Shown piece by piece: positions 3,185 through 7,974 of a stretch of 7,974 bases of DNA. Under the pieces are notes generated by a model. That model was not told the origin of the DNA and made no database searches. It saw only the letters and a program-made list of their open reading frames with translations. Positions within the stretch are counted from its first letter, which is position 1; each line of letters begins with the position of its first letter. Source of the stretch: Candidatus Pacearchaeota archaeon (GTDB lineage: Archaea > Nanoarchaeota > Nanoarchaeia > Pacearchaeales > GW2011-AR1); assembly GCA_002690445.1 (NCBI GenBank), contig NZER01000308.1, positions 1-7,974 of the forward strand, written 5' to 3'. Position numbers and translations under genes: made by a program.

Positions 3185-3712
3185 ATGGGATTCTTAGACA
3201 GATTCAAAAGACAAAAAGAAAACGAGGTTCCAAAGGTTATTTCTAGAGAGCCGCAATACCCGAAAACGGAGGAGACGTCTCAAAGGAGCGTAATAGGTAA
3301 GACGTGCCCGTACTGCAACGCTCCACTCGACCCAGTCCCTCAACGTAAAAAGAAGTGTCCCTCATGCGGTAGTCTCATCTACGTGCGAACCCGCCCCTCT
3401 GACCGACAACGAGTATTAGTCACCGAAGAAGGGGCAAAGCAAATTGAAGAAGAATGGGAAAGGGTTAGAATTCAGAAGGCTGAAGATGTTAAAAGGGAAA
3501 TAGCTGCTAGCAATAAAGCTGCCTTGGAGCAATACAAGGAATCAGGCGTAGTCGAAAAGGTTGAAATATATCCTGCACTCGATGAGTATAATTGTTCTGT
3601 CTGCGAAGCTGCTGCTGGTATTTATCCTATTGATAAAGCGCCTTCATTGCCCCTCATCGGTTGTACATCCAAGAAGGGTTGCCGATGTACCTATCTTCCC
3701 GTCATAGACTAA
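3185..3712 (+). CDS. Protein with two putative zinc-binding sites: N-terminal Cys4 ribbon and C-terminal Cys-rich domain, 175 aa
   Basis: Residues 41-61 form a zinc ribbon (C41-P-Y-C44 ... C58-P-S-C61), followed by LIYVRTRPSDRQRVLVTEEG. This is a recurring sequence type in phage- and island-encoded proteins. Residues about 84-120 are a charged helical linker. The C-terminal part has C137-S-V-C140, then C160, C166 and C168 in a CRCTYLP context. It recalls the cysteine-rich tail of Mu F-like head-morphogenesis and related proteins, where a CxxC pair is followed by a P-x-x-C ... CRC group. No other structural phage gene is present, so a capsid role is unlikely; a DNA- or protein-binding role is a better guess. 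The ribosome binding site is a purine run (GAGAGGAGGAGG, 3171-3182) just before the ATG. Only 16 bp separate it from the preceding gene. Confidence 0.8.
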   Translation: MGFLDRFKRQKENEVPKVISREPQYPKTEETSQRSVIGKTCPYCNAPLDPVPQRKKKCPSCGSLIYVRTRPSDRQRVLVTEEGAKQIEEEWERVRIQKAEDVKREIAASNKAALEQYKESGVVEKVEIYPALDEYNCSVCEAAAGIYPIDKAPSLPLIGCTSKKGCRCTYLPVID

Positions 3713-3783
3713 CAGGAGAAAACCTAAGACAGAGAAAGGGGGTTAACGATGAGAAAAGTTAAGCAAATTGTTAAGCAACACAC

Positions 3784-3801
3784 TGAAGCTATTTAGCTTC
3801 A
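3784..3801. other. 8-bp perfect inverted repeat in the left arm of the attachment region
   Basis: TGAAGCTA (3784-3791) and TAGCTTCA (3794-3801) are perfect arms around TT. The repeat lies between the second and third GTTAAGCA copies. It has no T-tract after it on the plus strand, so termination is unlikely. It could be an operator for integrase expression or a binding site for a directionality factor. Confidence 0.5.
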
Positions 3802-3872
3802 AAATTTGGGGCAAGTTGTTAAGCAAAGTGCTTAACAAGGGAATTTGTGCAAACCATCAAAAGGAGGAAAAA

Positions 3873-4925
3873 ATGAGGAAAACAGCTTCAAAATCTAGTG
3901 GGCCCGGCTGGATTCGAACCAACGACCAATCGGTTATGAGCCGACCGGACACGCTCAAACTGCTTAACAAGTTCTCAACTTCCACTATTGCAGAAACAGG
4001 AAAGTTAAGCAAATCCTATATTTCTCAGGTCAAACACGGTAAACGACAACCTAGTCAAAGACTCATAGGAGTAATCCTCGACCTTCTGCCCCAGTCCAAT
4101 GACAGGGAAAAACTTGCAGCCATCGACAATACCCTTAACTCCTTTATAAAATCCCGCAGGCAGGGCATCTCTCCCAATACCATTAGGGACTATCGCATCA
4201 TCTTGTCAAAAGCCTTGAGTGTGTTGGGGCTTTCTCCAAAGACTTCAGACATAAACCGCTACCTACGGTCTCTCTCCTGCTCAATAGGTGGCAAATATGG
4301 GTACTTCAAAGACTTGAGGGCTTTCTATAATTGGCTCTACAGCCCAAGGTCTGGGCTCCCCTTCAAACCAGAGAATAACCCAGTCGCTTGGGTCGATGCT
4401 CCCAAGAGGCCAGCCATAATCTTACCAAGCCTTACTGCCGAACAAGTACAGGGATTGATAGACAAGTGTGATTCTGCACGAGACAAGGCAATCATAGCGG
4501 TATTCACCGAGTCCGGATTAAGGCTTTCAGAATTAACTAATATCAGGAGAAACGACATCGACTGGGGGAACCGTACCATCCGAACTATAGGCAAGGGGAA
4601 CAAGGAGGGTTTAGCCCCTTTCGGTGAGTTATCGGAGCAATATCTTCAATCTTGGCTTACCGAGTATCAACCCGACGGTAACATCTGGGGCCTGAACCAG
4701 TGGGGGATTGTATCAATGCTACGCAGGCTGGAAAAAGCCACTGGCCTCCCCTGCAACCCTCACACCTTCAGGAGAACCTTTGCCTGTCTCTTGAGGAAAG
4801 CTGGAGTGGATACCATGACAATTAAAGATTTGGGAAGGTGGGAGAGCCTAGAGATGGTACAAAGATATACGAGGTCGGTGACATTCCAAGATAGCTTGAA
4901 GCACTACAAGGCACCGTTGTCGTGA
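3873..4925 (+). CDS. int: Tyrosine recombinase/integrase with embedded attP and N-terminal helix-turn-helix, 350 aa
   Basis: The catalytic set is complete, numbered from ATG 3873: R217 (SGLRLSEL), K241 (GKGNKE), H297 and R300 (HTFRRTF), W323 in place of the second His (GRWES), and nucleophile Y332 (QRYTR). Residues about 95-185 are the SAM-like core-binding domain (ISPNTIRDYR onward). Residues about 38-61 (IAETGKLSKSYISQVKHGKRQPS) look like an XRE-type helix-turn-helix and may serve as the arm-binding domain. Residues 10-25 (GPGWIRTNDQSVMSRP) are simply the in-frame translation of the antisense tRNA half. ATG 3873 is chosen because AAGGAGG lies 5 nt upstream. A TTG at 3768 extends the frame but has no ribosome binding site. 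An internal ATG at 3936, complement of the CAT anticodon, would give a 329-aa protein. Integration would remove the native start and promoter. Confidence 0.93.
   Translation: MRKTASKSSGPGWIRTNDQSVMSRPDTLKLLNKFSTSTIAETGKLSKSYISQVKHGKRQPSQRLIGVILDLLPQSNDREKLAAIDNTLNSFIKSRRQGISPNTIRDYRIILSKALSVLGLSPKTSDINRYLRSLSCSIGGKYGYFKDLRAFYNWLYSPRSGLPFKPENNPVAWVDAPKRPAIILPSLTAEQVQGLIDKCDSARDKAIIAVFTESGLRLSELTNIRRNDIDWGNRTIRTIGKGNKEGLAPFGELSEQYLQSWLTEYQPDGNIWGLNQWGIVSMLRRLEKATGLPCNPHTFRRTFACLLRKAGVDTMTIKDLGRWESLEMVQRYTRSVTFQDSLKHYKAPLS
3899..3946 (-). other. attP: Putative attP core: 3' half of a tRNA-Met(CAT) gene, antisense to and inside the integrase gene
   Basis: On the minus strand, 3945-3929 folds as a complete anticodon arm: 5-bp stem GTCGG/CCGAT and loop CTCATAA, anticodon CAT. 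A 5-nt variable loop (3928-3924) follows, then a T arm with stem GTTGG/CCAGC and loop TTCGAAT (3923-3907). Next come the 3' acceptor strand CGGGCCC (3906-3900) and discriminator A (3899). There is no D arm, no 5' acceptor strand and no encoded CCA, so it is not a functional tRNA gene. A tRNA 3' half beside a tyrosine integrase is the standard signature of a tRNA-targeting attachment site. The crossover is probably in the anticodon or T-arm region. Met, initiator-Met or Ile(CAT) tRNAs share this anticodon; discriminator A and the arm structure are compatible with elongator Met. Confidence 0.88.
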
Positions 4926-4991
4926 AAAGTTATTACACTGTCATCTATACTGCCGCAAGTCTGTTTGATAGAGCTGCAATGATATAATGTA

Positions 4992-5089: not shown

Positions 5090-5743
5090 ATGGAGAATAA
5101 CACTGAACAAGTCAACCTGCCAAGACAAAAGCTACGTCAGCGATGGATTGTGCTAATCATTTTCGCTGTCGTGGCAATGCTTCTCGCTGGATTCTTGAGG
5201 GTTTATCATGGAGGTGGACTCGGATTCCATATAGTAGCCAAAGATAGTTTCTCTTTCAGCGATACAATTGTAAACTTGGACAATATTCTCGGCCAACCTC
5301 GCCTCGTGGTCATGTTGCGGCATCCCGACGTTGTAAGGCAGCTTGAGGAGATGGGTATTATCGAAACACTGGAACAGGCAATCGAAACACTGGAACAGGC
5401 ATCAGAGCAAATAATGCGAGAGATTGACGAAGCGATAGAAGGCGATATTAGCGACAATGTCAATCTAGTGGGTAGGGAGCACAATGGTACTTGGAGCCTT
5501 TTTGAATGGAAACAGGATGAACTCGGCCTCCGATATTTGACAGGAACCGTAGCCAACCGTTCTTCGAATGAGTATTCATTCGTGCAAATTGACTTCTATC
5601 TTTATGATAAGACTGGGGCTCAAGTAGGGAGCACATCTGCCTTTATCAGTAATTTGGAGCCTTATGGTACATGGAAGTTTGAAGCTCTTGTTCTTGAAGA
5701 GAACGCAGTACGGGCAAAATTCAAAGGGGTCACAGGTTTCTAG
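5090..5743 (+). CDS. Membrane-anchored FxLYD-domain protein with a coiled-coil segment, 217 aa
   Basis: A basic N-terminus (PRQKLRQR, 11-18) precedes one strongly hydrophobic segment at about 19-38, which fits a signal anchor with the rest outside the membrane. There is no lipobox Cys. Residues about 83-118 are helical and acidic, and include a perfect heptad duplication IETLEQA-IETLEQA (91-104), consistent with a coiled coil. The C-terminal domain (about 147-212) has YLTGTVANRSS followed by FYLYD at 169-173, the signature of FxLYD domains. These are beta-sandwich modules found on bacterial envelope proteins, usually of unknown role. The start has only a modest GAGG about 9 nt upstream. It has its own promoter and lies after the integrase. 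Cargo that modifies the cell surface is possible but unproven. Confidence 0.85.
   Translation: MENNTEQVNLPRQKLRQRWIVLIIFAVVAMLLAGFLRVYHGGGLGFHIVAKDSFSFSDTIVNLDNILGQPRLVVMLRHPDVVRQLEEMGIIETLEQAIETLEQASEQIMREIDEAIEGDISDNVNLVGREHNGTWSLFEWKQDELGLRYLTGTVANRSSNEYSFVQIDFYLYDKTGAQVGSTSAFISNLEPYGTWKFEALVLEENAVRAKFKGVTGF
5360..5401 (+). repeat. Perfect 21-bp tandem duplication in coding sequence
   Basis: The 21-bp unit at 5360-5380 is repeated exactly at 5381-5401. It is in frame and encodes IETLEQA twice, adding exactly one heptad to the predicted coiled coil. Lack of any base difference suggests the duplication is recent or actively variable. Confidence 0.95.
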
Positions 5744-6655: not shown

Positions 6656-7974
6656 TCACTTCGAGAAACGATAAACGACCTTACTCCCCCGCTTAATACT
6701 TTTCTCCCAATCCAACCCAAAGACTCTTGCCAAGTTGTGCCTGACATTCGTTAGGTGCATCGCAAGACTTCGAGCATTCTTGAAGGGGAAGTAGAGCCCT
6801 CCTTCCTGTGATAGTGTGCTCCATTCGCCATAAAGCTGCGCTGGGGTTAGCCAGACATCCTTCCCACTTTGCCACTCCTCGATTATGGCTGGTAGCGGCG
6901 AATCCTCCAGGAGAGCCTCATCCTGAAAAGTAGTGAGTCCTTGGAGTAGCGGCTCAACCTTGTCCCTCCCTTCTATTCGCTCTATCAATGAAGCCCAATC
7001 CGCCATCCTGAAGGTGCTATCGGGGGGAGGCTCTAGCAACTTGGGGATTAAGGCATTAAGCTCAAGGATAAGGCCATCCCACATCCTGTCTCGTAGCCCC
7101 TTCACCATGCGGAGGAGCTTGCTCTCCGGCGTCTTGCTTGGTCGCTTTTTCAGCCGGAGAATAATCAACCTTTCCGCTAGGGCGCTATCGTCAATTGGCG
7201 GGTTAATTGACGTGAAAGCCACAAAACATCGTGGGGTGAAACTGACCTGGGTGTTGGTGGTGTATAGCTTCCTGAGAGAGATTGTCTGGCCGGTTGCCGC
7301 CCGCTTGAGCTCCGGGATGACCCATTTGGGCGTCTTATCGCTCTCAAGGTCATCGAGCGCCAGTAGGTGGTTAGCCGATAGGGAAGCCCAGAAGTCATCC
7401 TGACCTCGTATGGTGTCGAGGTCTCCGTTGCCATAAAGGAAGTGCAGAAGCCTTCGTAGAAAGAGGCTCTTGCCAGAGCCAGCATCCCCGGTCAGGCATA
7501 GTATTGGCTTGGTGGGAAGTTCCTCGGTGAAAAAGAGGCTCAATACCCAGAACTTAGCCACCTCCCTTTGCTGCTCTGGTCTTAGGGCTACAAGCTCACC
7601 TATCTCGAAGTTAAGGTCATCGGTGAGATATGCCCAAGGCGAGATGGCCTTCTCCAAATCAGGCTTGAAGGGTTGTTGCCACTTCTCCCTAGCAAAGTAA
7701 ACCCCGTCGTCGCCATTGCTGGCCCTCTTGATGGTTTTACCGTCCAGCTTTAGTGTCTCGCCGTCTCCCATATCAATGTAGAGGATACCACTGGCTCTAT
7801 CCCAATGGGTTAGGCGATAAACCTCTACTTTCTTCCCTTCAGTAAGGGCTTCATTCTCCAGGCTAGACAGGGCATATCTGCCCTCGGTCTCGGTGGGGTT
7901 CAGCCCGAACTGCCTTTCAATTAGCGCCTTAAAGTCGGGGGCATCCAAGGGGATAACCGAGCCATTGAAGTAGA
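6656..7974 (-). CDS. Replication protein, C-terminal part: SF3-like/D5-type helicase domain of the primase-helicase fusion
   Basis: This is the C-terminal part of the 775-aa protein that begins at 1108; the frame enters from the right edge. In whole-protein numbering the Walker A motif is GDAGSGKS (499-506, K505), the Walker B motif is LLALDD (540-545, D544 and D545), and the sensor-like motif is VAFTSINPP with N594. A likely arginine finger follows at R605 (AERLIILRL). The order and spacing match superfamily-3-like helicases of plasmid and viral initiators, which melt the origin and unwind DNA as hexamers. The segment before the ATPase (LFYFNGSVIPL, about 335-345) resembles the lead-in region of D5-type helicases. 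The last about 100 residues probably form a winged-helix DNA-binding tail; this is a guess from length and position. The TGA stop lies 3 nt before the right arm of the inverted repeat in the putative origin. The TTG at 7946-7948 that would open a shorter frame is an internal Leu codon. Confidence 0.9.
   Translation of the reverse strand, partial: YFNGSVIPLDAPDFKALIERQFGLNPTETEGRYALSSLENEALTEGKKVEVYRLTHWDRASGILYIDMGDGETLKLDGKTIKRASNGDDGVYFAREKWQQPFKPDLEKAISPWAYLTDDLNFEIGELVALRPEQQREVAKFWVLSLFFTEELPTKPILCLTGDAGSGKSLFLRRLLHFLYGNGDLDTIRGQDDFWASLSANHLLALDDLESDKTPKWVIPELKRAATGQTISLRKLYTTNTQVSFTPRCFVAFTSINPPIDDSALAERLIILRLKKRPSKTPESKLLRMVKGLRDRMWDGLILELNALIPKLLEPPPDSTFRMADWASLIERIEGRDKVEPLLQGLTTFQDEALLEDSPLPAIIEEWQSGKDVWLTPAQLYGEWSTLSQEGGLYFPFKNARSLAMHLTNVRHNLARVFGLDWEKSIKRGSKVVYRFSK
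7876..7974. repeat. Terminal direct repeat, right copy (circular contig overlap)
   Basis: This is an exact copy of bases 1-99. Position 7876 is equivalent to position 1 of the circle. It codes for residues around 337-369 of the primase-helicase, upstream of the ATPase domain. Confidence 0.93.

Follow-up and report, generated by a model that had tools for sequence, protein, structure and literature searches.

A bacterial-type tyrosine integrase with attP in frame inside its own gene, which integration into tRNA genes probably cuts from its start

The window, by which is meant the whole stretch of 7,974 nucleotides analysed here, is most likely a small integrative element of plasmid-like type in its free, circular state, with a tyrosine integrase gene laid out in such a way that integration would cut it; we hold this explanation, taken as a whole, with high confidence. 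As read from the sequence, the start codon and ribosome binding site of the integrase are upstream of the tRNA core of attP and the core is read in frame, while in integrated relatives the two parts of the gene are located at opposite ends of the element and mostly still in phase through the attachment site (att). The split was seen in relatives; for the element of the window itself, no copy in the integrated state turned up.

The window contains a 99-bp terminal repeat (1-99 identical to 7876-7974), which indicates a circular molecule of 7,875 bp. The circle encodes a primase-polymerase, a helicase-like protein, a small helix-turn-helix (HTH) regulator, the tyrosine integrase and several other proteins. 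The primase-polymerase and helicase parts (2-1129 and 6656-7972, minus strand) form a single reading frame interrupted by the contig ends. The protein encoded at 3185-3712 (plus strand) has CxxC motifs close to the N-terminus and a weak C-terminal match to PHROG 115, a family of phage minor head proteins (E 8e-5), and the ORF at 5090-5743 contains a perfect 21-bp tandem duplication, ATCGAAACACTGGAACAGGCA, at 5360-5401. No complete tRNA was detected in the window with ARAGORN. When the 10 window proteins were compared with the 17 integrated elements described below, the integrase was the only one that matched any element. The exact 45-mer of the attP core had no match in viral contigs, searches of viral contigs with the integrase returned 2 and 4 loci with short or distant matches, and none of the 28 viral stretches carrying the pattern TTCGAACC...TGCTTAACAA matched the family profile at E 1e-10. 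The best identities to named plasmids and phages were 33% and 28% at E 1e-15.

The features of the integrase gene and attP are as follows.

3758..4012: attP region, octamer-repeat arms on either side of the tRNA core, overlapping the integrase start; all 6 octamers are here
3758..3777, plus strand: arm repeats GTTAAGCA at 3758 and 3770 (octamer count)
3818..3836: two arm repeats, one at 3818 (GTTAAGCA) and one at 3829 (TGCTTAAC) (octamer count)
3861..3867, plus strand: Shine-Dalgarno AAGGAGG of the integrase, five bases before ATG 3873; the closest relative, L133, has GGAGG ahead of an in-frame GTG
3873..4925, plus strand: tyrosine integrase gene, 350 aa (PF00589, E 3.7e-25; the stop ends at 4925)
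3873..3947, plus strand: residues 1-25, leader and tRNA-derived stretch, predicted disordered (pLDDT <50, residues 1-24)
3898..3947, minus strand: core of attP, a tRNA-Met(CAT) 3' half that runs antisense to the integrase and is read in frame (48/50 identity to a tRNA-Met gene; 54-bp repeat of L133)
3948..4085, plus strand: HTH domain, residues 26-71, probable arm binder (high-pLDDT helices; PF01381 match)
3961..3968, minus strand: arm repeat TGCTTAAC within the coding sequence, part of the KLLNK codons (octamer count)
4004..4011, plus strand: arm repeat GTTAAGCA within the coding sequence (octamer count)
4428..4877, plus strand: catalytic domain, residues 186-335 (PF00589)

The 50 bp of the core correspond to positions 73-24 of the tRNA-Met(CAT) gene of a retrieved locus, and residues 10-25 of the integrase (GPGWIRTNDQSVMSRP) are the antisense reading of this tRNA 3' half, in agreement with an earlier note on this DNA that had claimed an in-frame attP inside the integrase gene. 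The span for attP in the note (3873-4012) omitted the left arm, and a better estimate is approximately 3758-4012 with the core at approximately 3898-3947. The octamer GTTAAGCA/TGCTTAAC occurs in 6 copies per circle, all within 3758-4011, compared to 0.225 expected from a first-order Markov model, and the attP assignment therefore does not depend on the tRNA match alone. Sites of the lambda attP type contain arm sites for the integrase, and by analogy the octamer repeats are taken as integrase arm sites. Since the arms span 3758-4011, the start codon of the integrase and the first part of its HTH domain are inside attP. When relatives were grouped by HTH type (by eye, L147 ungrouped), one type had GCTTAAC as arm repeat in 9 of its 12 loci and the other had GTTCACA in all four, a covariation that supports the HTH domain as the probable arm binder. 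No arm repeat was found in L155, and the repeat is variant in L021 and L023.

A scan of 3550-4200 revealed no sigma-70-like site upstream of 3873, so that the position of the integrase promoter is only inferred; a single promoter and a single terminator were predicted in the scan, no more than chance would give. A mini-ORF, MRKVKQIVKQHTEAI, is present at 3749-3796 (plus strand) with GGGGG upstream and is not in the integrase frame. It resembles the integrase start of L134 and L171, suggesting that the start in the window may have shifted to 3873.

Residues R217, K241, H297, R300, W323 and Y332 of the window integrase are invariant across 42 aligned proteins, and we take them to be the catalytic positions (R, K, H, R, W/H, Y) of tyrosine recombinases, which places the protein in the PF00589 family. 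A PF01381 (HTH) match at E up to 10 was obtained for all 42 proteins, that of the window protein falling below the cut-off (E 0.0044). Pfam matches of protein P0001 up to E 10 were confined to PF00589, HTH_3 and SAM_1. The nearest relatives of solved structure are Xer recombinases and the Brujita integrase, and no SSV integrase was seen among the 51 sequence matches of solved structure up to E 10. The structure model of P0117, a protein of the sister layout described below, has residues 55-97 disordered, with an ordered HTH before them and the catalytic part after them, and the tRNA match of P0117 (residues 63-84) is within this predicted disorder; the pTM of 0.55 in both models makes domain placement uncertain. 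Predicted disorder of the tRNA-derived stretch in P0117 and the window protein could be the reason that several frames of many tRNAs are tolerated.

The fate of the gene upon integration was followed in 17 two-ended integrated copies, hand-picked by direct att repeats with both ends on one contig. The repeats are 33-111 bp and the spans 2.1-10.9 kb; one copy (L137) is on a 1.85-Mb contig. Repeats of eight other loci (L014, L019, L039, L041, L135, L144, L154 and L161) were left unused because the partner was not a tRNA att at the end expected, was a neighbouring tRNA or was a tandem element. One tandem (L144) has an intact tRNA-Lys at 523 and the ORF of a distant integrase at 694; these are followed by another element, with an integrase body after a tRNA-Lys 3' copy at 4931. 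The catalytic body adjoins one att copy in 17/17, a consequence of choosing the copies by att repeats. At the other att copy the longest upstream open frame keeps the phase of the body when read across att in 15 of the 17 (binomial p 4.5e-6 against 1/3, treating the copies as independent). A Shine-Dalgarno sequence and start precede this att copy in the body-phase frame in 12/17 and in neither of the other frames in any copy (0/17 each); three copies (L018, L021, L023) have the in-phase frame without them. The in-phase remnant is absent from L147 and L155, in both of which the integrase ORF is broken, and present in L171, where it is also broken. These results support the earlier claim that integration cuts the gene from its own start. 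On the body side no Shine-Dalgarno sequence and start were found in 14/17 copies, and a weak SD-like in-frame start was found in L023, L147 and L155. None of the 17 has a remnant-type start together with the body on one side of a junction, as would be expected if the whole gene were retained there. Two copies (L165, L171) have an ATG at the LLNK position after att. The body is beside the intact tRNA in 7/17 copies, on the same strand in four of them (L021, L147, L151, L152), and at the far end in 10/17. The att core is a tRNA 5' half in L136, L150, L022 and L023.

The closest relative, L133, has an integrase 77% identical to that of the window. It occupies a tRNA-Met gene, and a perfect direct repeat of 54 bp bounds it on either side, one copy being in tRNA-Met. 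The remnant adjoining the intact tRNA-Met consists of GGAGGAAAAA-GTG (GGAGG), the RKSASK codons in frame and then the tRNA reading; the other end has the tRNA 3' half followed by the integrase body, and here a stop codon immediately precedes att. These are the junctions that the earlier note had foreseen at tRNA-Met genes, and both remnant and body junction closely follow attP of the window. The window and L133 have no further gene in common at E 1e-4, which fits a mobile module of integrase and att.

A search of a large protein collection returned 2,788 relatives at E 0.001, and the 120 listed were analysed. In 48 of these the HTH or catalytic match is preceded by at least 12 residues; the other 72 have fewer and begin too near it for comparison with tRNA. 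A match to translated tRNA at E 0.05 was found for 47 of the 48 long-leader relatives among those listed, compared to 17% of shuffled peptides; all 47 are antisense readings, divided among three frames as 16, 23 and 8. The best 80 of 85 genome-contig matches comprise 79 loci, 70 of them named Chloroflexota. The named copies are MAGs and the hosts named for the family are Dehalococcoidia/Chloroflexota; the host of the circle is probably likewise among Chloroflexota bacteria. Contigs of L012 and L024 are binned as Methanothrix and Planctomycetota, either misbinning or a wider host range. When 393 genomes belonging to a single class were searched, 35 contained the family at E 1e-60 or better, and genome searches at family and order level gave no place for the integrase beyond that search.

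For the loci themselves, 78 candidates gave 63 unique integrase loci, window included; dropped from the profile matches were those with E >1e-40, C-terminal fragments, and L049, L050, L052, L055, L056, L058, L062, L064, L066, L067 and L070. A tRNA or tRNA fragment is present no more than about 260 bp upstream of the catalytic part, on its N-terminal side, in 57 of the 63 (36 partial, 21 complete). The arrangement is common within this family, and the earlier remark that an in-frame attP is unusual in a bacterial-type integrase understates it. The partial fragments are free of stops in the integrase frame in 33/36, the other three containing a stop, versus 56% of tRNA-half frames that are open in a library of 113 tRNAs of these loci (p 3.7e-6). 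Among the partial fragments every antisense frame is in use (5, 5 and 13), as are two sense frames (5 and 8), and the third sense frame is represented only by complete tRNAs at the body side (5). The tRNA names are best matches in the 113-tRNA library and may be off for short fragments.

Two layouts were recognized. In type A, the group of the window, the HTH follows att; in type B, the sister layout, the HTH precedes att and the catalytic part follows it. Once integrated, type B elements carry the catalytic part at one end and, at the opposite end, a reading frame with the HTH alone; 7 of the 8 HTH-only remnants scanned pass the Pfam cut-off for HTH_3. P0117 and P0060 represent the unsplit form, each being one protein in which a tRNA-like stretch joins an HTH-like start to the catalytic domain; the middle parts match translated tRNA at E 5e-6 each, a value reached by 0 of 50 shuffles for each. 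With residues 1-110 of P0117 as query, the only match was P0117 itself. A tree of the catalytic part (quick method; 58 rows, 48 labelled, the labels of L154 and L028 corrected by hand beforehand; 18 of 55 inner branches weak, L139 on a long branch) gave at least 27 changes of tRNA identity, 13 of tRNA orientation and 2 of HTH/att order. Judged from these sequences, target tRNAs switch often and att remains within the gene.

Three other explanations must be weighed against a gene cut by its own integration. That attP merely abuts the integrase, the overlap being in frame by chance, could draw on the 56% of tRNA-half frames that are open, and is contradicted by both the phase agreement of the remnants (15/17) and the openness of the fragments (33/36); we regard it as most improbable. 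An integrase whose real start is after att (MSRP or the NTG of LLNK), so that the upstream open frame is incidental and the gene functional when integrated, would agree with the many listed relatives that begin shortly before the HTH or catalytic match (72/120), often called from MSRP, MLNK or LLNK, and with the ATG at LLNK in L165 and L171. Against it are the Shine-Dalgarno sequence and start upstream in the integrase frame in 12/17 copies and in none of the other frames, the fused proteins P0117 and P0060, and the sister layout, in which the HTH upstream and the catalytic domain downstream of att can be joined only by read-through. A start after att is accordingly considered improbable.

The strongest contender, although still rather unlikely, is that the gene is split and the body is re-expressed after integration by host or tRNA transcription and an internal start, in which case integration would switch the mode of expression rather than silence the gene. 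In its favour, the body is beside the intact tRNA in 7/17 copies, on the same strand in four of them, and two sources describe precedents: a tRNA-Asn promoter drives int of integrated ICEKp1 (PMC13023037), and for pTN3 of T. nautili a tRNA-Leu promoter is suggested for int(C), relatives of pTN3 often having an in-frame start near the beginning of int(C) (PMC8371274). The window-type body retains both the HTH and catalytic domains after the cut, and together with the ATG at LLNK this makes internal starts possible; such a body could still be expressed if translation began internally on a host transcript. The position of the body away from the intact tRNA in 10/17, the closest relative included, and the 14/17 body sides lacking a Shine-Dalgarno sequence and start argue against re-expression.

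With the gene cut by its own integration as the preferred explanation, a cycle can be proposed. The circle would be the source of integrase, with the HTH domain binding the octamer arms and the catalytic domain recombining attP with the tRNA gene. After integration the body would be without ribosome binding site and start, and probably without promoter; in the sister layout it would also lose the HTH domain. Stripped of its start signals, the body would make integrase no longer or at a lower level, and the element would be held in place. Excision would then depend on intact integrase from another circle, or on host or tRNA transcription that allows the body to be expressed in a leaky way.

The closest parallel is archaeal. 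According to a 2021 review by Badel and co-workers (PMC8371274), suicidal integrases are exclusive to archaea and tied to PF16795 (Phage_integr_3), integration producing int(N) and int(C) with the catalytic domain in int(C); in SSV1/SSV2, pTN3 and pT26-2 an att of about 40-50 bp is located within the integrase gene, as is the 50-bp core of the window. The earlier note's comparison with SSV-type integrases holds in that att is inside the gene and the N- and C-terminal parts are at opposite ends in relatives. The differences are the hosts, which by name are Chloroflexota in 70 of 79 loci (the one Methanothrix MAG perhaps misbinned), the PF00589 plus HTH_3 domains, and the use of many tRNAs in several frames and both orientations. 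PF16795 was absent from the P0001 matches up to E 10 and from the families listed (25 of 48) for the 42 proteins. Suicidal integrases are also marked by N and C parts that, once integrated, do not recombine efficiently. In what can be read from sequence, the family has the functional marks of suicidal integrases and lacks their domain and host marks.

For an att within int there are bacterial precedents. An Islander paper (PMC4383910) notes that Mx8 and SSV integrases extend across attP. Myxococcus phage Mx8 (like Mx9) is bacterial with attP within the int coding sequence of Mx8, but there (PMC6070905, PMC4701971) integration swaps the C-terminus, after which the enzyme is less active or has altered specificity; the exchanged part is not the 5' end of the gene. 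Serine integrases of streptococcal ICEs in rumA also contain att within the gene but are serine recombinases (PMC4701971) altered in length and C-terminus. The window core, at residues 10-25 of 350, does not fit a C-terminal switch of the Mx8 type.

In integration-dependent immunity of the Brujita type the integrase stays whole. As described in PMC6109161, integration edits an attP-bearing phage gene and thereby acts as a genetic switch, as proposed here, but the gene is that of the repressor and is cut near its 3' end. In the window attP is in the integrase gene, and only the sister layout gives rise to an HTH remnant. For ICEKp1 and ICEclc integrase transcription depends on the circular or integrated state, as may also hold for the window, but by a switch between promoters, and no cut coding sequence is described in the abstract of PMC13023037. 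In the literature searched, which covered few subscription papers, none of the results listed described this family or reported that integration separates a bacterial integrase from its start.

A wider proposal is offered tentatively, its parts to be taken jointly: the family may be a bacterial lineage of self-splitting integrases with an origin independent of the archaeal ones, the tRNA fragment may serve as an exchangeable and largely frame-indifferent linker, and the remnant of the sister layout may be a free arm-binding HTH protein that could repress or block further recombination. If this is true, integration in the sister layout would convert an integrase gene into an HTH gene, a switch thrown by recombination itself. 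Overall, the family represents the archaeal suicidal-integrase design in bacteria with a different domain make-up and can thus be studied as a probable convergence. It offers a possible route to one-way integration without a separate directionality factor, and with its repeated changes of tRNA identity and orientation, against only two of HTH/att order, it is a natural record of target switching.
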